A stretch of DNA of 27,930 nt from a virus. Below are positions 3,155 to 23,045 of this stretch, in pieces. The DNA is taken from positions 1-27,930 of IMG/VR virus record IMGVR_UViG_3300009285_003368. One strand, written 5' to 3'. The notes under the pieces were generated by a model that did no database searches, had not been told where the DNA came from, and worked only from the letters and a program-made list of their open reading frames with translations. Both the position numbers and the translations under genes were made by a program. Position 1 is the stretch's first letter. Each line of letters starts with the position of its first letter.

Positions 3155-3433
3155 ATGGAAAAGACTGTTTATATTACTTCGCACTGGAGCAGCTACAGTA
3201 AAGAGTTTCAGTATAGTGTTCAAGGTTACGCACCTTCCCCCGAAGGTGAATTTGTGCTTGTGGAAGAGCGCGTGCTTCACTTTGAAACGCCCAACGATAT
3301 AGAGCTACGCGTGCAGGTAGCTGCCGCTTTGCGCCGGAAGAAAACCAAGGTCCTTGCCGACGCGCACGTCGAGGTAAAAGAGATCGAAGAGCGAATTCAA
3401 GAGCTGCTCGCGCTTGAGGATAAATCAAAATGA
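3155..3433 (+). CDS. conserved phage hypothetical protein
   Basis: A 92-residue protein. Residues 1-45 look like a beta sheet with aromatic residues (VYITSHWSSYSKEFQYSVQG then FVLVEERVLHF), and residues 50-90 form a long charged helix with heptad character (VEVKEIEERIQELLALE). The layout resembles small conserved proteins in early regions of podoviruses, but I cannot name a family. The ATG is preceded by taggagg (3142-3148). The stop overlaps the nuclease gene by 4 bases, so it is co-translated with it and could belong to the same process. Confidence 0.6.
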   Translation: MEKTVYITSHWSSYSKEFQYSVQGYAPSPEGEFVLVEERVLHFETPNDIELRVQVAAALRRKKTKVLADAHVEVKEIEERIQELLALEDKSK

Positions 3434-5265
3434 AGCCCTCTTTCCCAACCGTCCTCGACAGCACCATCATTGCTGCCGCCCGTTCCTGCTTGCAGAAAGC
3501 AAACCTTGAGTTCTTCGAGCATTGGAAACCTCGCGAGCCCTCTGTGCATCTCCACGCCGGCGCAGCTTATGCCGCCGGGATGGAAGCCGCTCGGACAGCT
3601 TTCTACCTTCAAGGCCACTCCGAAGCCGACTCGGTCGCCGCTGGCGTCCAAGCGCTACTTGTACACTACGGCGACTTCGAATGCCCGCCTGACTCTGCCA
3701 AGTCCCTCGAACGCACCGCAGGTGCCCTGGAGTTCTACTTCTCCCGTTATCGCCTCGGCGAGGACAAAGCGATCCCAATGACGCTCCCCGGCGGCAAGCG
3801 TGGGATTGAGTTCTCCTTCGTCGAGCCTCTCGACATCAACCACCCTGAAACAGGAGACCCTCTCCTGTACAGTGGCAGAATGGACATGCTCTGTGACTAT
3901 GAAAATATGCGTCTTGGCGAGGACGATAAGACAGCAAGTCAGCTTGGCGCTTCGTGGCCAAGGCAATGGGACTTGCGCAGTCAGTTTACCGGCTACTGTG
4001 TGCATCCTTCAACCGAAGTGCTAACAGAAGTAGGCTGGCGAGCAATCGCTGCCCTTCGAGAGGGCACCAAGATAGCTACCTGGAAAGACGGAGAAATACG
4101 CTTCGATTTGCCTAGTCAGCTAATAGAAATAGATTTCGCAGGAAACCTCACAGAATTTAACGGAAAGGTACACTTGCTCGCAACACCAGAACATCGACAA
4201 GTAGTGTTTGATCAATACAGCCAAACCTACAAAACATTCACGATAAACAAACTGCCGAGAAACAGCGGAGCTTTACGCTTTGTATCGGCTGGAATAAAAC
4301 GAGGAGGAGTAGACCTTGACAAAAACTTTATTCGCTTATTGGTAGCATTTCAAGCGGATGGGTACTGGAAAGGAACCGCAGCGCAATTCCATTTTCGGAA
4401 AGCGCGAAAGGTAGAAAGGTTACGAAGCATCCTCACCGAGCTTGAGATAGAATTCAAAGAGCGCGAAGAAGCCGACGGAACAGTTCGGGTGTACACTTAT
4501 ATGACAAGTGAAGTGTACATGCTCATGCTCTCTTTTTTAGGAAAGAAAAAAGAGTTCGACAACTGGCTACTTTCTTTGTCGCAGGCCTGTTTATCTACAT
4601 TCATAGAAGAACTTAAGTACTGGGACGGAACTGATTATGGAACAAAGAAGGCTCCATTGTACTTTACGACAAACCCAATAAATGCAGACTGGGTGCGAAC
4701 TGCTGCTGCTTTATGTGGAAGGCACACATCAATGCACGTTCAGCATGACACTCGAAGCAATTCAACTCAATACAGAGTTGTTCTGAACTATGACTGCAAG
4801 CATTCAGTTCATCTTACGCCTACAGAACAAATCCCCTACGTAGGAAAGGTATATTGTGTAACTGTTCCAGACAGCTATTTTTTAATTAGATCTGGAGGCA
4901 GAACGCTTATTACAGGGAACTGTTGGGGAGCAGCTCGCGCAGGTATCAAGCTTGATGGTTTCTTGGTACGAGGAGTTAGCATCCTCAAAACTAAGTATGA
5001 CACTTTGGAGGCGATCACTTACCGCCCAGAATGGCAGCTGGACCGCTGGTACGGCCAGCTAATGCGAGACATTAGGCGGATGATCGCGGCTTGGGAAGAA
5101 GGATACTTCGACTTCAACCTCGATCACGCCTGCACGGAGTATGGCGGATGTCCCTTCAAGGGAGTATGCCAAATGCGCGAGCCGGAGCAGCTCCTGCGAA
5201 TGCAATTCCAGCGCAGGAAGTGGAACCCAGTTACACGGATGGAAACACTTGTGGAGGAAACATGA
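3430..5265 (+). CDS. RecB/Cas4-like PD-(D/E)XK nuclease, intein-containing precursor
   Basis: A 611-residue precursor: N-extein residues 1-189, intein 190-497, C-extein 498-611; the spliced product would be 303 residues. The extein fits the RecB/Cas4-type PD-(D/E)XK family. Asp152 in GRMDML and Asp165-x-Lys167 in GEDDKTAS are the metal-binding residues, followed by the Q-x3-Y motif (Gln185, Tyr189). Cys20 plus a C-terminal Cys568, Cys574, Cys580 (C-x5-C-x5-C) suggest an iron-sulfur cluster as in Cas4 and AddB. The intein starts directly after Tyr189, so precursor activity should depend on splicing. The likely role is a 5'-3' or end-resecting exonuclease in phage recombination, with the Sak4-like ATPase (8220-9074) and SSB-like protein (9543-10022). 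Start and stop overlap the neighbours by 4 bases. Confidence in the nuclease fold is high; the exact polarity is unknown. Confidence 0.85.
   Translation: MKPSFPTVLDSTIIAAARSCLQKANLEFFEHWKPREPSVHLHAGAAYAAGMEAARTAFYLQGHSEADSVAAGVQALLVHYGDFECPPDSAKSLERTAGALEFYFSRYRLGEDKAIPMTLPGGKRGIEFSFVEPLDINHPETGDPLLYSGRMDMLCDYENMRLGEDDKTASQLGASWPRQWDLRSQFTGYCVHPSTEVLTEVGWRAIAALREGTKIATWKDGEIRFDLPSQLIEIDFAGNLTEFNGKVHLLATPEHRQVVFDQYSQTYKTFTINKLPRNSGALRFVSAGIKRGGVDLDKNFIRLLVAFQADGYWKGTAAQFHFRKARKVERLRSILTELEIEFKEREEADGTVRVYTYMTSEVYMLMLSFLGKKKEFDNWLLSLSQACLSTFIEELKYWDGTDYGTKKAPLYFTTNPINADWVRTAAALCGRHTSMHVQHDTRSNSTQYRVVLNYDCKHSVHLTPTEQIPYVGKVYCVTVPDSYFLIRSGGRTLITGNCWGAARAGIKLDGFLVRGVSILKTKYDTLEAITYRPEWQLDRWYGQLMRDIRRMIAAWEEGYFDFNLDHACTEYGGCPFKGVCQMREPEQLLRMQFQRRKWNPVTRMETLVEET
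3997..4920 (+). mobile_element. full-length intein with LAGLIDADG homing endonuclease
   Basis: Encodes precursor residues Cys190 to Asn497 (308 residues). Block A begins CVHPSTEVLTEVGW; block B has T-x-x-H (Thr252, His255 in LLATPEHRQVV); the end reads KVYCVTVPDSYF, then GGRTLITGN, with Cys498 as the +1 residue. The penultimate residue is Gly rather than His, a known but less common variant that can slow splicing. Between the splicing blocks are two LAGLIDADG-type motifs, LLVAFQADGY (303-312) and FIEELKYWDGT (391-401), with the catalytic Asp310 and Asp399 intact, so the homing endonuclease may be active. Codon use is visibly more AT-rich than the exteins (many aaa, tta, aca and gta codons), which points to separate origin and horizontal movement. 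Confidence 0.9.
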
Positions 5266-10074: not shown

Positions 10075-11400
10075 TTGAACCTCATCGAAATCTCCGCGAT
10101 CAAGATCGCCTCGAACCGTCAGCGCCGGCAATTCGACGCCGCCAGCTTGCACGAACTCGCTGACAGCATTCAGTCTCGCGGCCTGGACCACCCAATCGTC
10201 CTCCGCGTCGATGGCGACGATTACGTTCTTGTCTCCGGCGAGCGCCGCCTGCGGGCGGTGACTGACATCCACGCGCTCGGCGGCGAGTTCACTCACGATG
10301 GCCAGCCTGTTCTTGCTGGCTGCATTCCTTACACCACAAAAGGACAACTCAATGCTCTCGAAGCTGAAGAAGCAGAACTTAGTGAAAACATCCACAGGGA
10401 CGACCTCACGTGGGCAGAACGAGCTGCTGCTCATCTTAGACTCGACAAGCTTCGGCGAGGCCAGGCCGAAGCCAGAGGGCTGCCTGCTCCTACCATCGCC
10501 GATCTTGCGCTTGAGGTTAGAGGATCATCAAAGGGCATTAATCAGGAAACTACCCGACGAGAGCTTATCGTTGCGAGTCATCTCGACGATCCTGAAGTCA
10601 AGTCCGCCGCCAACGTCGATGACGCCTTCAAAATCCTCCGCCGGAAAGAGTCCTCGGCGAAAGACCGTCTACTCGGCGAGCAAGTGGGGCGCACATTCAC
10701 AGCTGATCTACACCGAGCGCTTAACGAGGATGCGCTAGAGTGGCTTGCAAAATGCCCCGCCGAGGCGTTCGACGTGATTCTCACTGACCCTCCCTACGGC
10801 ATGGGCGCGGATGAGTTCGGGGACAGCGGCGGGCTGGCGCAGGGGGCGCACAGCTACACAGACACCCCTGAAGTGTATTCACAGATCCTTACAGTTGCAT
10901 TCAAAGAGTTTTACCGCATTGCGAAGCCGCAGGCGCATCTGTATTGGTTCTGTGATATAGATGCGTTCACGCATACAAGGGAAATGTTCGAAGAGGGCGG
11001 CTGGTCCGTATTCCGCACTCCCCTTATCTGGTACAAGCGCAACGGAATGCGCGCACCTTGGCCTGAATATGGGCCGCAAAGGAAATATGAAACTATCCTT
11101 TACGCTACAAAGGGCAAACGCCCTGTTCTCAAGATGGCCGGTGATGTACTTGATTATCCTCCCGACATCAATCTTGGCCACGCAGCTCAGAAACCCGTGG
11201 CCTTATTCGAAGATCTTCTACGGCGTTCATGTCACCCTGGAGATACAGTACTTGACCCCTTCGCTGGTACAGGAACGATATTCCCTGCGGCTCACGTGCT
11301 CAAGTGCCGCGCGACTGGCGTGGAACTTGATCAAGCAAGCTACGGGATCGCGGTCAAGCGATTGGAGCAATTGAAGGCGCAAAAGGAGTTAGGACTATGA
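10075..11400 (+). CDS. ParB-domain / DNA methyltransferase fusion
   Basis: A 441-residue two-domain protein. Residues 1-130 are a ParB/Sulfiredoxin-like N-terminal domain: the opening NLIEISAIKIASNRQRRQFD aligns with the usual ParB start, and GERRLRA (55-61) is its signature. Residues 205-435 form an amino-methyltransferase with the catalytic DPPYGMG (238-244), GHAAQKP (368-374) and the S-adenosylmethionine-binding DPFAGTGT (394-401). This motif order is the beta class, which modifies N6 of adenine or N4 of cytosine. The TTG start fits the conserved N-terminus and has aggag (10064-10068) 6 bases upstream. The gene follows a terminator, so it needs readthrough or its own promoter. Roles could include protection from restriction or marking phage DNA. 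No cognate restriction enzyme is seen, so it is probably an orphan methyltransferase. Confidence 0.85.
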   Translation: MNLIEISAIKIASNRQRRQFDAASLHELADSIQSRGLDHPIVLRVDGDDYVLVSGERRLRAVTDIHALGGEFTHDGQPVLAGCIPYTTKGQLNALEAEEAELSENIHRDDLTWAERAAAHLRLDKLRRGQAEARGLPAPTIADLALEVRGSSKGINQETTRRELIVASHLDDPEVKSAANVDDAFKILRRKESSAKDRLLGEQVGRTFTADLHRALNEDALEWLAKCPAEAFDVILTDPPYGMGADEFGDSGGLAQGAHSYTDTPEVYSQILTVAFKEFYRIAKPQAHLYWFCDIDAFTHTREMFEEGGWSVFRTPLIWYKRNGMRAPWPEYGPQRKYETILYATKGKRPVLKMAGDVLDYPPDINLGHAAQKPVALFEDLLRRSCHPGDTVLDPFAGTGTIFPAAHVLKCRATGVELDQASYGIAVKRLEQLKAQKELGL

Positions 11401-11809: not shown

Positions 11810-14326
11810 ATGGGAATCTTAGGGCATGGCATAGGTCCAATTCCCGCTAGAGTGATGTTGGTCGGCGAAGCATGGGGCGAGAACGAAGAGCGTGAGCGGC
11901 AGCCCTTCATTGGCGCTTCAGGGCAAGAACTCAACAGAATGCTCCATGAAGCCGGCATCATGCGCTCGGAGTGCTACGTCACGAACGTAGTCAACGCTCG
12001 CCCGCCGAACAATTATCTAGGCGCGTGGATTGCTACCAAGAAGAAAGACATCACCCCAGCGCACCGCCTTCTCCGCGACAAGTACTGTCTCCCCATCATC
12101 CACGAAGGCTACGCTGCGCTGCTCGCGGAGATCGAGATGGTGCAACCTAACATCATCGTCGCCTTTGGCAACCTCGCGATGTGGGCGCTGACAGGGAACT
12201 GGGGGATATTGAAGTGGAGGGGAAGCCAGCTACGCTGGGACCCTTATAGTTACCTTCCAGTAGAGGGCACTAAAGATATTTTACAGCACCCCAAGGTTAT
12301 CCCCACCATACATCCCGCCTCCATCCTTCGTGAGTGGAGCCAGCGCGCTGTGGTGCTAAACGATTTGCGCAGGGTCAAGCGGCACATGACCTCCCGCGTC
12401 TATGATAACGAGCCAGAGTGGCGCTTTATAACGCGGCCGAGTTTTTCTACTGTGCAAGGCGTGCTTACCATGCTGCACGCTTGGCTTACTTCCGGCAAAA
12501 AGGTCTGGCTTGATTTTGACATTGAAACAGTCAGCGGCCACATAGACTGTATTGGATTAAGCTGGTCACGCGAAGATGGAATCTGCATTCCATTTATAAC
12601 GCGAGGAAACCGTGAAGGTTATTGGTCAGCCGCCGAGGAGGTTCAAATTGTCTGGTGGCTGTACCTTATCCTTACACACAAAAATGTCAACATACGCTGG
12701 CAAAACGGTCTCTACGACGCCCAGTATGTCTACCGTCACTGGCACTTCATTCCTCACGGCGCGCAGGACACCATGATCAGCCAGCACAGCATGTTCTCCG
12801 CCCTCCCAAAGGGCCTCTCCTTCCTCGCCTCCATGTACGCAGACTGGTACGTCTACTGGAAAGAGGAAGGTAAGATCTCCTCCGGCGCACCAGAGGACCA
12901 GCGCTGGCGGTATAACCTTCAAGACTGTGTGTACACACGCGAAGTCGGCGAGGTCCTCACTGAGTCCCTCACCGCGATGGGCCTCTCCCAAGTCGATGCG
13001 TGGCAGCAGGAGCTTTTCTGGCCTGTCCTTAAGGCGATGCTTCGCGGCGTGCGAGTGCGCCCAGAAATCAAGCAGCAGATGGCCCTTGATATTCAGGAGG
13101 AACTATCCCACCGCGAAGCCTTCCTCTTCAACGTCCTCGGCCACTCTATCAACCCACGTTCGTCACTTCAAATGCAGGCCCTGTTCTACGACGACCTAAA
13201 GCAGCCGACGATTCTCAAGCGCACCCAGATCCAAGGCCGCTTCGTCATGCGCCCGACCTGCGACGACGAAGCCCTCACCAAGATCGCCGCCCGCGAGCCG
13301 ATCCTCCGCCCGATCTGCCACGCCATTGCAGACATACGCACCCTTGAAAAGTTCCTCAACGATTTTGTCCTGATGCCTCTCGACGAGGACGGACGGATGC
13401 GTTGCTCTTTCAACATTGCAGGAGATGCCGGTGGTAAATCAGCCCCTTACTCGTACAGGCTTAGTTCATCCAAGAATCCGTTTGGCTCGGGAGGCAACCT
13501 TCAGACGATTCCGTCGGAGAAATCCAAGTCGGTTAACAAAGCTGCAACGCGAGGTTCGATGGAATTCACACTCCCAAACATACGAACCATCTACGGACCA
13601 GACCCTGGATTTACGTTTTTCGACATGGACCTTGACAGGGCGGACCTTCAAGTAGTAGCGTGGGAGGCCGACGATCCGACGCTCAAGGCGGCGCTGAAGA
13701 TGGGCGCGGATGTACACCTTCTCAACGTGTTCGTCCTCGACAATCAGGAACCGCCACCGTTAGAAGAGCTGGTCGAGACACATCCAAAATACTGGGATTA
13801 CCGAAGTCCTCGTAAGGCGAAGCGAGAGTTCGCCAAAACCTTCGGTCACGCAACAGATTATGTTGGCCAAGCCAAGACCGTCGCGGCCCACACCGGGAGA
13901 TTAGTTCATGAAATCGACAGAGCACAAAAGATCTATTTTGGAAAGTATCCAGGCATTCTTCGCTGGCATGAAAGGGTCAAGGACCAAATCACCAAGTATC
14001 ATTTCGTCGAAAACAAGTTCGGCTACCGATGGTACATCTTTGACAGATTGGAAGGACTCCTCCCCGAAGCCTGTGCCTGGATTCCACAATCAACTGTCGG
14101 AATTGTCATCAACAGAGTCTGGATTAACTTCCATCGTGCGTTGCCAGAAGTGCAGACACTCTTACAGGTTCACGATTCGCTGGCCGGCCAGTTCCCCACT
14201 CATCGTAAAGAGTACCTACTGCCCAAAATGCGGGAGTGCTCAAGAATACACATACCATACGACGACCCTCTGATCATACCGACAGGAATTAAAACGTCGG
14301 AGATTAGCTGGGGCGATTGTGCCTAG
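11810..14326 (+). CDS. uracil-DNA glycosylase-family A DNA polymerase fusion
   Basis: An 838-residue protein with three domains. Residues 1-193 resemble the type 4/5 uracil-DNA glycosylase superfamily: VMLVGEAWG (15-23), PFIGASGQ (32-39) and the HPAS motif (168-171); only two cysteines occur here, so the usual four-Cys iron-sulfur site is absent. Residues 230-400 are a DnaQ-like 3'-5' exonuclease with Asp237-x-Glu239, Asp303 and Asp372. Residues 400-838 are family A polymerase. Motif A is DLDRADLQVVAW with catalytic Asp607. In motif B, Arg672, Lys676, FG (678-679) and Tyr684 occupy the O-helix positions. Motif C is VHD (787-789). There is no 5' nuclease domain, as in T7 polymerase. It is surely the replicative polymerase; the attached domain may remove or sense uracil during synthesis. 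ATG is preceded by agaggaag. Confidence 0.9.
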   Translation: MGILGHGIGPIPARVMLVGEAWGENEERERQPFIGASGQELNRMLHEAGIMRSECYVTNVVNARPPNNYLGAWIATKKKDITPAHRLLRDKYCLPIIHEGYAALLAEIEMVQPNIIVAFGNLAMWALTGNWGILKWRGSQLRWDPYSYLPVEGTKDILQHPKVIPTIHPASILREWSQRAVVLNDLRRVKRHMTSRVYDNEPEWRFITRPSFSTVQGVLTMLHAWLTSGKKVWLDFDIETVSGHIDCIGLSWSREDGICIPFITRGNREGYWSAAEEVQIVWWLYLILTHKNVNIRWQNGLYDAQYVYRHWHFIPHGAQDTMISQHSMFSALPKGLSFLASMYADWYVYWKEEGKISSGAPEDQRWRYNLQDCVYTREVGEVLTESLTAMGLSQVDAWQQELFWPVLKAMLRGVRVRPEIKQQMALDIQEELSHREAFLFNVLGHSINPRSSLQMQALFYDDLKQPTILKRTQIQGRFVMRPTCDDEALTKIAAREPILRPICHAIADIRTLEKFLNDFVLMPLDEDGRMRCSFNIAGDAGGKSAPYSYRLSSSKNPFGSGGNLQTIPSEKSKSVNKAATRGSMEFTLPNIRTIYGPDPGFTFFDMDLDRADLQVVAWEADDPTLKAALKMGADVHLLNVFVLDNQEPPPLEELVETHPKYWDYRSPRKAKREFAKTFGHATDYVGQAKTVAAHTGRLVHEIDRAQKIYFGKYPGILRWHERVKDQITKYHFVENKFGYRWYIFDRLEGLLPEACAWIPQSTVGIVINRVWINFHRALPEVQTLLQVHDSLAGQFPTHRKEYLLPKMRECSRIHIPYDDPLIIPTGIKTSEISWGDCA

Positions 14327-18078: not shown

Positions 18079-18405
18079 CTAGTAAGTAACGTCGGGGTCG
18101 TACATTGGGCTGATGTAGCCAGGTGTCGCGCAGCCAGGAATCGCTGTGCCAGGATAAGCGCTGCTTCCGTTCGGGCTGCACCGGGCGGCGAAGGTGTTCG
18201 CCGGCATCGGCTGGACCCAAGGGGGAGTCTGGTTGTCGGCGACGGCGCGGACGAAGTCCTGCGGCTGTCTCGCTTCCCAGTGTTCAGGGCACACATAATA
18301 CCCCTGCCAATGCCTGACGAGGGTTGATGCCTTTCGCTTCCTGCCACATTCATAGCAGACAGCGTTCCAGTCGCCCAGTTCAAGGTAATCAGCTCTGCCA
18401 GTCAT
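18079..18405 (-). CDS. conserved zinc-ribbon phage protein
   Basis: A 108-residue protein. The N-terminal CYECGRKRKASTLVRHW and VCPEHWEARQPQDFV carry the CxxC and Cys-Pro-x-His of a zinc ribbon (Cys17, Cys20, Cys39, His42). The phrase 'RQPQDFVR' is characteristic of a small protein regularly found among podovirus structural genes, known to me by pattern and not by a search. The C-terminal half is Pro/Gly/Ser-rich and probably extended. The start overlaps the stop of the giant gene by 4 bases. Function in the virion or in assembly is unproven. Confidence 0.65.
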   Translation of the reverse strand: MTGRADYLELGDWNAVCYECGRKRKASTLVRHWQGYYVCPEHWEARQPQDFVRAVADNQTPPWVQPMPANTFAARCSPNGSSAYPGTAIPGCATPGYISPMYDPDVTY

Positions 18406-21400
18406 CTCTTTCTCCTCTTCTTAATCCTCTGCTGCGTAGCACGCTGTTTCTTCAGCGCTTTTTTCTCCGCATAGGTCTTCCCATAAATTGGCGCCCCTAA
18501 CATACTCGCGACTGCCTTTTCCGGATTAGCAGCTTCAAACCCCTGCGCAGAGATCGGCGTGAACTGTCGAGCTGCGTGACCTACACGTGTTGGCAAGCTT
18601 ATATCCTGTGCCTTTGGCGTATCACCCATTCTGGGCGCCCCATGTGTGCTTAAATACTCCGCGTCAAGTATCTGCGCAAGTGGCTCTTTAATGATAAAGC
18701 TTGCCTTGTTAAGAGCCTGTTGACGTGGCGCAACTAGCCAGTGAATCGGCTCCATGAAATGCTTCGACACCTGCATTGTCCGACCATCACCAAGGTCCAG
18801 TCGTGTTGGATCTTTGTTGTCCCAGATATGATGACCAGACAGCTGTACATTGATGGTGTCTACGATAGAGGTATAGATAAGAGCGCTTCGCAGGACATAC
18901 TGACGGTGGAGATCTGCAAGCTCTGTAGGCCGTACTAGGCCACGAAGCCCTGTACCACCTGTTCCTTTTATCCCTGCCATCTTCGCAACGCCGACTCCCG
19001 TAAGGCCTCCAAGTATCCCACCAATGATCTTGTGTTCTGGGTCAACCTGCGTGCCAAGAACAGCTCCAGCACCAACAGTGACACCCGCAGGACCAAAAGC
19101 CTTTACGAAGGCTCGCGTAGTGGAGATCGTCCAGTCAGGAGCAAACATAAGCAGGCGCATTCCTAAACGTCCCGAAGGTGAAAACGCCGCCGATGCTATC
19201 TCGTGTCCCCAACGCGACTGAAACTCTCCGGTCAGCGCTTGCCAGTCCAAGCCGCCATAGATGTCGTTAGTGAACGAGGCTGCCATCTTGCCGATCTCTT
19301 CGCGAGACTTTAACTGAGCACGACCGGCGGCAATGTCGCGCGCGTTATTGCGGGATAACTCGCTTGTCTTTTCCAGGAAAGTTTCCAGCTTGTTCGCAGA
19401 ATGGAACCTTCCCCACATCGCCCTATCGAACATACGATTAAGCGCAGCGAGCGCACCTGTAGTCACTTTGCCTAAGCCGGGGATAGTGTTATTAAGAAAC
19501 TTCGTCGTGGAGTCCAGCGCTTGATACAGAGGCATCCTCTCTTCTGCTATCGTTGGAAGCGCCCGTTCAAAGCCAATCTGCACCCCGCTCTTCAATGCGT
19601 ATTCTACTCCATCTCCAGCGCCTCCTTCTCGGATCATCTTGATTGCAAGGTTCTCTCCAAAGATCGCTGGCGCGAAGCTTTGTGCGAAGATGCGCGCTCC
19701 CCTTACAGGGGCCTTAAATATCGACGTAGCACCAAGCATTGCATGCTCAAGCGCCATTGCATGAAAGAGGGACAGAGAAACTGCAAGGCGCTTCTGTGTC
19801 GTGTTGATTGCATCCAGTGTACCGACAATCGCGCCGTGGTTCTTTGAGTCAAAGATAAACCTGAGGTCGGCGGCGATGTCAGGATGCACTACGTAGTTCT
19901 TCATCTGTGGATGGCTGATCTCTACGTAGCCGCCTGGCGACTTCATCTGTTTTGTGATTAAAGGCGTGCTGTCTGCTAGAGTAGACGCGCGCAGGGTATT
20001 TATCAGTCGCCGATTCTCTACTGCGTTGACGATCGAGTTGCCGTAGATGTCTATAATCTGCGCAATGTCTGTGGTGACTGGAGTGTAACCTGCCGCTTCT
20101 GCTTCTGCCCTTGTTTTGTACCCGCGGTGCTTGCCGAAAGGCGACGTAGTGGGCATTCCGCCGACTTGCTTGCCTTCCAACAGCCCCCGTGCTGGCTTGC
20201 CGTAAAAGCGTGTAGCGTAGTCATCCAGCATCTCTCGAATCACGCCAGCGTCTTTGGCGAGCTTGCCAAGACTGTCGTAGAAGGAGCGCACTTCGTCGGC
20301 GACCTGGCGCTCGGCGGCTGTCAAGACCGTTACTCGTTCCCTTTCTAGGTAATCATAGATCGCCTCTCTGCGTGCCGCGTCAGGTACAGCACGAAGGATC
20401 TTCTCCTGCATCTGGTAAATTGCGCGCCCAGCAACCTTCTTGGCGGCGGTGCTGTCGGCGATGAACTGCGTGATGCTGACGATTGGTCGAGGGCTCTGAG
20501 CGCGTTTGATCGCTGCAACCCAAGCACGCGGACGAGCATTAGCAAGGAGAGCTACAACACCGACACCGCCGACTCCGCCCTTGAGAGCACTGGTGATAGG
20601 GTTCTTAGGATCAAGGTAGGCCCCAAGGGCTGCACCGCCAAGGCCGGCGGCAATGGCTGCCATCGTGGTGAGATCGGCGGAGCCGCGCTGGCCCTTACCT
20701 AAAGTCTCTGTAAAGGCTAGAAAAGCTGCTGGGTCTGCAAAGCGTCCAAACTTAGCTTCAGCTTGCTCCATTCCAGCTTTTGTCCATTCTACAGGTCCAC
20801 GCTGCCCCATTCTAGAGTTACGAACATCTACAAGCCCCGTTCCTTCCAGATCCCCCACTTCTCCCCACTCGCCCTCCTTCACAAAGTCCTGCACATACGG
20901 CAGATACTGCGCCGCCGGGGCACGATTGGACTTACCTTTGATTTGGGTGATGCTTGCTGGCTCTGCCGCAGCGTCCGCCTCCATTTCTTCTAGCGTTACT
21001 CCCTCAGGGTATTCTAGAGCATCAGGATCTCTTACCCCTTCTGGCTTCACCTCCATCGTCACATGCGGCTCACCCTTCTTATCCACCAGCGTGTAGATCT
21101 TTGCATCGCCCCGCTTGATCGCCTCCCATCCACCTAGGCCATAGCCGGGGTGGCCGGAGTCGCCGGAGGCTTCGATCCAGTCGGGGTGAGCTTTGGGTAT
21201 AGCATCATCACTTCCAGGCCATTCACCAGAGCGGCGATTATAAGAAGTAGATGGGCGCCTCGGCGGCTCATACCCCCTCACCGAGTGTCCCATCCTCTCG
21301 CTATTCCAAGCGAACTGCCCCGGTTTATTCAGTTGAATCCACCTCATCCCATCCCCGTAGTCTTTGTACACAGGTGCATCGCCGATGAGCTTCGCGGTGG

Positions 21401-23045
21401 ACTTTGCCGCCTTCGCTGCCAGCTCTTTGTCCCACTTCGCCGTCTCTTGCACCGCCCAAACAAGGTCTTTCTGTTGAAGCTTTTCCAGCGTAAGCTTGCC
21501 TTCAGCCATTAGGGATTGCAGGCGATCACCAACATGGGAGAGGTAAGACGTAATGGCCTGCAATTCTATACGCCCTGCTAATGACCCGTTCGCGCTATAA
21601 GGCTGCGCCACATCCCAAATCGGCTCCCCGATCTCTGCCTTCCCTTCCTTCAGCATCTCCAGTCGCTTCGGAATGCTCGTCGTCACGAAGGCTTTGTCGG
21701 TCAGATCTTCCCACCGCGCCACTCCTTCGCCGAAGGGAATCTCTACATCCTTCAGGCGGTCGGTCGGCGAGCCGGCTTCCTTGTTGAGCCATTTTGTCAT
21801 GCGGTCTTTGGCCCAAGCAGCGCCAGCTTCTGTTTGCGCTTCAGGAATAGTACGGCCTTCGGCAGCGGCAGCTGCACGAGAGGCTCCCCCAAGTTTGTCA
21901 GCGAGCGGCCTCGCCAGCGTCTCCACTGCCCCCTTCGTCCACACTCCCCTACCAGGAATCCGCATCGCGCCTACTGCACCAGCTGCCCCCAACGCTGCCG
22001 TATAGATCGGATTCCCCTTTGAATCTGTATCACTTGGCTGCGGCTCCTCTTTCTGCTCCAGTGGCGTGTCCTTTGGCTCCTTCACAAACTTGTTATAGAG
22101 CATCACGAGTCCACTCGCCGCCGCGAAGGTGCCGGCGAACTTTCCAAAAAGTCCCAGCAGCTCTGGATCAATCGCGCCCTTGTTTTTCAGTGCGTTCGCG
22201 AAGAAGTCCTTTACTGTCTGCACGTCCTCTGGGAGCGCGTCCTTAGCCTTCTTCGCTTTCTCAAAGATCGCTTCTACTTGCTTCTCTGTCACCACGCCAA
22301 GCTTTTTATTTGAAATTGGCTTTGACACGTCCTCCCACCCAGACAGCCGCCCCTCTGCATTATACTGCGGGCGATAGCGAGCAGGGTCAGGATTCTCTAG
22401 TGGCACCTCTGACATCGAACGGATAGTCGCCTTGGTACTCTCAGGCACCTTCACGTTAGAGAGAACCTCCTTCACCATCTTCGGCCCGGCGCGCACAAGG
22501 GCCATCTGCATAGCGCCATCTACAAGTCGGCGGGCATCATATTCTGTTAGCGCACCACCAGTGTACTTTTCTACTGCCTTGCTGCCAGCCTCGATTGCGT
22601 GCTCGACAATAGACTGGTCGTAAGGGTCCTCGCCGGAGACGATTTTCAGGGCGCTTTGAAGGGGAGTCTTGAGCACCTCCAACGGAATGGTAAGGTCAGT
22701 TCCGGGAATAGGAATAGATGGCAGCTCCTGCGCAAGCTCCGCCGCCGACCCTTGCACCTGTCGCGTTTCCCCTTTCGCAAGCGCATACAGCTGTGTGCCA
22801 GTTCCCTGGAGCCATCCTGCCAATCCAGCTGGAGCGCCAAGAAACATATCGGCGGCGGCGAGTGCACCTTTGCCAAGCCCCTTTGCCGCTTCCCTAACTG
22901 CCCCCAGCACGCTTGGGCCGCGCTCTGCTTCCACTTCAAAGTCGGTCATCCCACGGGCAGTGTTCCAGTTAATCAAACCTTCCCCTGTCGGCGCTTCTTC
23001 TGTCGGCGGCTTTATAGCTTCGTCCCAACTCAGCATAGCCATCAT
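18402..23045 (-). CDS. giant polyvalent internal-virion/ejection protein
   Basis: A 1547-residue protein, the largest gene here. Residues 50-90 are Ala/Gly-rich and amphipathic (LGKGALAAADMFLGAPAGLAG). Residues 565-667 hold GDGMRWIQLNKPGQFA, MGHSVRGY and GLGGWEAIKRGDAKIY with HVTMEV, the PcfJ-like block of phage polyvalent proteins. Residues 790-835 are a Gly-rich hydrophobic zipper. Residues 940-1110 (YGKPARGLL, DIYGNSIVNAVENRRLINTL) and 1200-1400 are a long helical domain with hydrophobic patches. The end (KKALKKQRATQQRIKKRRKR) is strongly basic and may hold DNA. Polyvalent proteins are packaged and injected with the genome, so membrane channel formation or early action in the host is likely. 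Start: two adjacent ATGs (23045, 23042) behind gaggg, overlapping the upstream stop. Assignment to a virion role is inference from position and architecture. Confidence 0.75.
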   Translation of the reverse strand: MMAMLSWDEAIKPPTEEAPTGEGLINWNTARGMTDFEVEAERGPSVLGAVREAAKGLGKGALAAADMFLGAPAGLAGWLQGTGTQLYALAKGETRQVQGSAAELAQELPSIPIPGTDLTIPLEVLKTPLQSALKIVSGEDPYDQSIVEHAIEAGSKAVEKYTGGALTEYDARRLVDGAMQMALVRAGPKMVKEVLSNVKVPESTKATIRSMSEVPLENPDPARYRPQYNAEGRLSGWEDVSKPISNKKLGVVTEKQVEAIFEKAKKAKDALPEDVQTVKDFFANALKNKGAIDPELLGLFGKFAGTFAAASGLVMLYNKFVKEPKDTPLEQKEEPQPSDTDSKGNPIYTAALGAAGAVGAMRIPGRGVWTKGAVETLARPLADKLGGASRAAAAAEGRTIPEAQTEAGAAWAKDRMTKWLNKEAGSPTDRLKDVEIPFGEGVARWEDLTDKAFVTTSIPKRLEMLKEGKAEIGEPIWDVAQPYSANGSLAGRIELQAITSYLSHVGDRLQSLMAEGKLTLEKLQQKDLVWAVQETAKWDKELAAKAAKSTAKLIGDAPVYKDYGDGMRWIQLNKPGQFAWNSERMGHSVRGYEPPRRPSTSYNRRSGEWPGSDDAIPKAHPDWIEASGDSGHPGYGLGGWEAIKRGDAKIYTLVDKKGEPHVTMEVKPEGVRDPDALEYPEGVTLEEMEADAAAEPASITQIKGKSNRAPAAQYLPYVQDFVKEGEWGEVGDLEGTGLVDVRNSRMGQRGPVEWTKAGMEQAEAKFGRFADPAAFLAFTETLGKGQRGSADLTTMAAIAAGLGGAALGAYLDPKNPITSALKGGVGGVGVVALLANARPRAWVAAIKRAQSPRPIVSITQFIADSTAAKKVAGRAIYQMQEKILRAVPDAARREAIYDYLERERVTVLTAAERQVADEVRSFYDSLGKLAKDAGVIREMLDDYATRFYGKPARGLLEGKQVGGMPTTSPFGKHRGYKTRAEAEAAGYTPVTTDIAQIIDIYGNSIVNAVENRRLINTLRASTLADSTPLITKQMKSPGGYVEISHPQMKNYVVHPDIAADLRFIFDSKNHGAIVGTLDAINTTQKRLAVSLSLFHAMALEHAMLGATSIFKAPVRGARIFAQSFAPAIFGENLAIKMIREGGAGDGVEYALKSGVQIGFERALPTIAEERMPLYQALDSTTKFLNNTIPGLGKVTTGALAALNRMFDRAMWGRFHSANKLETFLEKTSELSRNNARDIAAGRAQLKSREEIGKMAASFTNDIYGGLDWQALTGEFQSRWGHEIASAAFSPSGRLGMRLLMFAPDWTISTTRAFVKAFGPAGVTVGAGAVLGTQVDPEHKIIGGILGGLTGVGVAKMAGIKGTGGTGLRGLVRPTELADLHRQYVLRSALIYTSIVDTINVQLSGHHIWDNKDPTRLDLGDGRTMQVSKHFMEPIHWLVAPRQQALNKASFIIKEPLAQILDAEYLSTHGAPRMGDTPKAQDISLPTRVGHAARQFTPISAQGFEAANPEKAVASMLGAPIYGKTYAEKKALKKQRATQQRIKKRRKR

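Follow-up and report, generated by a model that had tools for sequence, protein, structure and literature searches.

The window analysed here (27,930 nucleotides, positions 1 to 27,930 of the IMG/VR virus record IMGVR_UViG_3300009285_003368) contains a gene for a 611-aa protein in which a nuclease is interrupted by a 308-aa in-frame insert directly after the tyrosine of its Q-x3-Y motif. We are highly confident that an environmental tailed phage here carries a mobile class 1 LAGLIDADG intein in its Cas4/RecB-like recombination exonuclease, an element predicted to splice constitutively and to act as a homing endonuclease. The junctions read QFTGY/CVHPSTEVLT and LITGN/CWGAA, and taking the 308 codons (190-497) out of 611 gives a computed spliced product of 303 aa. 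The intein coordinates and residue numbers proposed in a first-pass annotation of the sequence (C190-N497, i.e., 3997-4920) proved exact. The features of the gene are the following:

3430-5265, plus strand: precursor gene (611 aa), an open frame with start and end positions equivalent in homologues
3430-3996, plus strand: N-extein (189 aa), the nuclease core, with key residues invariant in intein-free homologues and a model (intein-free homologue L036) matching RecE, AdnA, SSO0001, and MGME1
3883-3885, 3922-3924, 3928-3930, 3982-3984, and 3994-3996: N-extein residues D152, D165, K167, Q185, and Y189, respectively; C20 also belongs to this part
3997-4920, plus strand: intein spanning C190-N497 (308 aa), whose terminal residues (Cys1 ... 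Gly-Asn / Cys+1) place it in class 1, delimited by the family alignment, a model (pLDDT 95) matching solved inteins, and its precise absence in 85 homologues
3997-4026, plus strand: splicing block A, CVHPSTEVLT, with C1, E7, T10, and G13 invariant in the family
4174-4209, plus strand: splicing block B, LLATPEHRQVVF, with T63 (conserved in at least 90%) and H66 (invariant)
4333-4362, plus strand: first LAGLIDADG motif, RLLVAFQADG, with D121 (invariant in alignments; model helix 109-121)
4600-4629, plus strand: second LAGLIDADG motif, FIEELKYWDG, with D210 (invariant in two alignments and at least 90% in another; model helix 196-206)
4849-4920, plus strand: splicing blocks F and G, VYCVTVPDSYFLIRSGGRTLITGN, with block-F Cys287, penultimate Gly307, and Asn308 (NCBIfam TIGR01443 intein_Cterm, 14.9 bits, cut-off 15.6; GN in 57/64 relatives)
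4921-5262, plus strand: C-extein (114 aa), beginning with Cys+1 (4921-4923); its cysteines are invariant in homologues, and +1 is Val in 60/85 intein-free homologues
5131-5133, 5149-5151, and 5167-5169, plus strand: C-extein cysteine cluster C-x5-C-x5-C
5263-5265, plus strand: stop codon of the precursor gene

The insert is beyond chance, because related sequences occur in 296 phage records, homologues of the host protein lack exactly these 308 codons, and two further IMG/VR phages (L095 and L096) carry inserts at the identical codon. The first-pass annotation had suggested searching for an intein-free allele at this codon; 85 such homologues (23 close ones, more from a wider search restricted to the top 80 loci, and three from isolated or circular phage genomes) align contiguously through QFTGY-x-WGA, and together with the junctions they support its placement of the intein directly after Tyr189. 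The proportion of three intein-bearing to 85 intein-free alleles is not an estimate of frequency, as the top-80 list is biased against intein-bearing alleles, whose matches are split.

By terminal residues and family membership, the insert is a class 1 intein. All the splicing residues are present (C1, T63, H66, block-F Cys287, N308, and C+1), and the relatives, many of them full-length down to E about 1e-23, reside in genes annotated as NrdA/NrdB, primase, RtcB ligase, phosphoesterase (RDF), PhoH, and nicotinamide phosphoribosyltransferase. Class 3 inteins are marked by a WCT triplet and lack a nucleophilic first residue; here the nucleophile Cys stands at position 1 and block B (LLATPEHRQVVF) contains no Trp, and we assign class 1 rather than class 3 because each of the 64 full-length relatives examined begins with Cys. 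The intein model matched the folds of TliVMA (7qsu, E 1e-16), PI-SceI, PI-PfuI, and I-DmoI (Foldseek), and its endonuclease part combines two motifs bearing D121 and D210 with an alpha-beta fold. The family alignment, the fold matches, and the absence of the insert in homologues thus agree with the earlier reading of a LAGLIDADG intein that has kept both motif aspartates. The window sequence on its own scores below the curated NCBIfam and Pfam cut-offs (for intein_Cterm, 14.9 vs. 15.6 bits), as might be expected of a non-splicing insertion such as a domain fusion or a Hint-type autoprocessing domain, while its relatives match Pfam LAGLIDADG_3 and Intein_splicing, with hits at E ≤ 0.1 to intein_Nterm in 11/23 and to Intein_splicing in 7/23 (cut-offs not shown). 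We give next to no credence to such an insertion, considering the terminal Cys and Asn followed by Cys+1, the position exactly between invariant residues, the intein-free alleles that restore a perfect enzyme, and the full-length match to the fold of inteins with an endonuclease. As a side observation, two PHROGs, 12229 (labelled 'ribonucleotide reductase') and 32482 (labelled 'PhoH'), hit the precursor gene solely by virtue of the inteins embedded in them (window positions 3997-4920), and automatic annotation by either would misname the nuclease.

The host protein is a PD-(D/E)XK exonuclease of the Cas4/RecB/RecE type, 303 aa long without the intein. Both the D...(D/E)xK and the Q-x3-Y motifs of Cas4/RecB-like PD-(D/E)XK nucleases are present, and D152, D165, K167, Q185, and Y189 are invariant in the alignment of intein-free homologues, as are C20, C260, C266, and C272 (numbering of the spliced protein). 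A model of the intein-free homologue L036, built from 35 intein-free sequences (pLDDT 91), matched the folds of RecE (E 7e-7), AdnA (9e-7), SSO0001 (1e-5), AddA (4e-4), and also MGME1, with weaker matches to the Cas4-Cas1-Cas2 complex and lambda exonuclease. The exonuclease family phrog_1218 was matched by 33/35 intein-free members, and PDDEXK_1 by 19/35 at E ≤ 0.01, although L036 itself did not reach the cut-off. We assign the protein to the Cas4/RecB superfamily of exonucleases because of these fold matches and phrog_1218, and the motifs point the same way, in line with the first-pass annotation. For a Cas4 proper of a CRISPR system, no cas gene was found among the window genes read, nor any PADLOC match. 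By their conservation, the four cysteines C20, C260, C266, and C272, the last three in C-x5-C-x5-C spacing, are probable ligands of a putative Fe-S cluster. Since the genes downstream encode a Sak4-like annealing/recombination ATPase, a protein with a weak match to ssDNA-binding proteins, a ParB-methylase fusion, and a UDG-PolA protein, and the gene order in MW202489 is similar to that of the window, the enzyme likely takes part in recombination or replication of the phage. Three other genes of the window deserve a separate mention: positions 10075-11400, with a TTG start, encode a fusion of the N-terminal domain of ParB and an N6/N4 DNA methylase domain (L095 has a similar fusion); the 838-aa product of positions 11810-14326 begins with a uracil-DNA glycosylase domain (PF03167, residues 7-183) and has a family A DNA polymerase domain (PF00476) in its C-terminal part; and positions 18402-23045 on the minus strand encode a 1547-aa protein amid likely virion genes.

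In the L036 model, the Q-x3-Y residues and the intein site lie within one helix (181-192). Because the intein interrupts this catalytic helix and keeps the C-terminal cysteines apart from the core, the precursor is predicted to be probably inactive. Translation would yield a single 611-aa precursor in which the nuclease core is parted from the putative Fe-S partners of Cys20; Cys1 would then attack the Tyr189-Cys190 bond, the chain would be transferred to Cys+1, and Asn308, preceded by Gly instead of His, would cyclise, releasing the 303-aa nuclease and a free 308-aa intein.

A penultimate His is usual in class 1 inteins, though not universal, and from the Gly at this position the first-pass annotation had deduced slower or conditional splicing. 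The end GN is found in 57/64 full-length relatives and Gly-Asn is invariant in the 9-member family alignment. To our knowledge, the intein of the RDF of A1 mycobacteriophages is the only family member that has been tested experimentally. It is homologous to the window intein over its full length (hhalign E 3e-32, ~24% identity), and its representative used here, the Gandalf20 RDF intein (317 aa), has Gly316. In Bethlehem, this A1 intein splices completely with the native Gly316, and exchanging Gly316 for His leads to accumulation of the precursor (PMC5050341). Slower or conditional splicing does not follow from the Gly, since it is a family trait and the RDF relative splices fully with it; the window intein most likely splices efficiently and constitutively. 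Gly-Asn is the normal ending throughout this large family of phage inteins, and slow splicing should not be read from it. The broken catalytic helix does mean that splicing must precede activity, conditional splicing is known from other inteins, and Cys1, block-F Cys287, and Cys+1 could in principle confer redox sensitivity, all of which would suit a switch that withholds the nuclease early in infection. Such a switch, also put forward in the first-pass annotation, appears improbable: besides the behaviour of the tested Gly relative, the 85 homologues without an intein imply that the nuclease can perform its role without such control, the scattered distribution of the intein is more in keeping with a parasite than with a regulator, and no positive support emerged. 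More speculatively, these three cysteines in a putative Fe-S nuclease could make splicing dependent on redox state or stress, so that active end-resection nuclease would be released only at one particular stage, and the inteins at this site would be kept for that purpose, a scenario that we consider highly doubtful.

Splicing would free an intein that is predicted to home, and the two other phages with an intein at the same codon bear on its mobility. L095 was recovered with a degenerate junction pattern and L096 with a relaxed version of it; the window intein protein as sole query gave no match in the collection, and an alignment of nine family members proved too diverse as a query, while the junction patterns and a three-intein alignment succeeded. 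A looser junction pattern matched four additional loci (L171-L174) that had no open frame and were dismissed as chance, and no match to the junction pattern was found in the bacterial and archaeal genomes searched. The pairwise identities of the three same-site inteins are 45.9, 46.6, and 45.2%, and those of the exteins in the set of window, L095, and L096 are 56.3, 36.5, and 37.2%. The three inteins form one clade (FastTree, support 100), whereas their host proteins do not group, and the L096 intein (~46% identity) is more similar than the enzyme that carries it (37%). As the inteins group, the exteins do not, and the L096 intein exceeds its enzyme in similarity, these comparisons indicate lateral homing at a fixed site: the free intein would cut intein-free alleles at the conserved QFTGY site and be copied into the cut allele during co-infection.

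Degeneration of the endonuclease is the usual course of the homing cycle once an intein is fixed, and the presence of the motif aspartates does not prove activity, so the window intein might splice while its endonuclease is dead, a relic on its way to loss. We regard this as possible yet unlikely, given that the frame is intact across 308 codons, that all three same-site inteins keep the two motif aspartates together with the K/R residues around them, and that the intein could not have reached distant host alleles without activity at some time, if only in the past.

The residue at +1 is Cys in 3/3 intein-bearing alleles, as compared with Val in 60, Cys in 13, Thr in 9, Ala in 2, and Gln in 1 of the 85 empty ones; in the subgroup to which the window protein belongs (65 intein-free rows), Val occurs in 59 and Cys in 2. 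Cys in all three intein alleles fits a splicing requirement, and the intein may either have entered a rare Cys allele or have brought the Cys codon along. One intein-free locus (L013, 3001-3903) carries a +1 Cys although the rest of its clade has Val, and may be a permissive target or the scar of a lost intein. The three same-site alleles, in hosts down to 37% identity, and the 85 empty alleles form a natural set for homing tests, and the same set poses the question of how an intein that requires Cys+1 enters alleles with mostly Val at this position.

The intein also differs from its exteins in base composition (GC 44% vs. 58% and 54%; GC3 41% vs. 66% and 61%), and a two-segment GC scan of the gene placed an AT-rich stretch at codons 214-526, with a log-likelihood ratio of 19.6 where 30 codon shuffles reached no more than 6.4. 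The insert is therefore AT-rich, as had been noticed from the sequence alone, where it was taken as a hint of recent homing. Lateral arrival was upheld, but recency was not, as the nearest intein-free allele has only 79% protein identity to the window and the L095 and L096 inteins are likewise AT-rich relative to their own exteins. AT-richness is weak evidence for recency because of this sharing, and may be a trait of the intein type instead.

Inteins in Cas4-like nucleases are already known; relative to the open-access papers searched, the Q-x3-Y site and class 1 are new for this kind of host protein. Kelley et al. 2016 described Cas4/RecB-like exonucleases with inteins from C1 mycobacteriophages, 40 in number and all inserted at a single site within the PD-(D/E)XK motif, and treated these inteins among class 3 (PMC5050341). 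In the open-access literature, we found no report of an intein at the Q-x3-Y site of Cas4-like nucleases. As cluster C1 representative we used IkeLoa gp206 (L170, 22441-24204), taken to be the exonuclease of Kelley et al.; it is annotated 'HNH endonuclease' but resembles a Cas4-like nuclease that contains an intein of class 3 type. Its intein follows ELK(S) and ends in HN/T, with the E-x-K lysine ~20 residues before the Q-x3-Y position. The C1 nuclease matches the window nuclease family weakly at the profile level (hhalign probability 0.6%), and this comparison was used for no more than anchoring the motifs D and D/E-x-K. The C1 inteins and the window intein share a LAGLIDADG-type endonuclease and a location at an active-site motif of a phage PD-(D/E)XK nuclease, but the former are class 3, end in His-Asn/Thr, and lie after the E-x-K (ELKS), whereas the latter is assigned to class 1, has Cys1 and Gly-Asn/Cys, and lies after the Q-x3-Y Tyr.

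The A1 RDF inteins (gp51-type phosphoesterase) belong to the same family (~24% identity, full-length) and share the Gly-Asn end, but reside in another host protein and have Ser, not Cys, at +1. Those in NrdA/NrdB, primase-helicase, RtcB ligase, PhoH, and NAMPT of T5-like, Silviavirus, Vibrio, and other phages are also members (24-30% full-length identity, GN end), in other host genes and less similar than the L095 and L096 inteins (45-47%). PI-SceI, PI-PfuI, and TliVMA, the best fold matches, have the same architecture of a splicing domain with an inserted two-motif LAGLIDADG endonuclease, although their host proteins differ and sequence identity is 8-16%. Cas4-like phage nucleases hence gain both an insertion site, after the Q-x3-Y Tyr, and an intein class, and because site and class differ from those of the C1 inteins, inteins have entered the active centre of this type of nuclease at two places, independently of each other.
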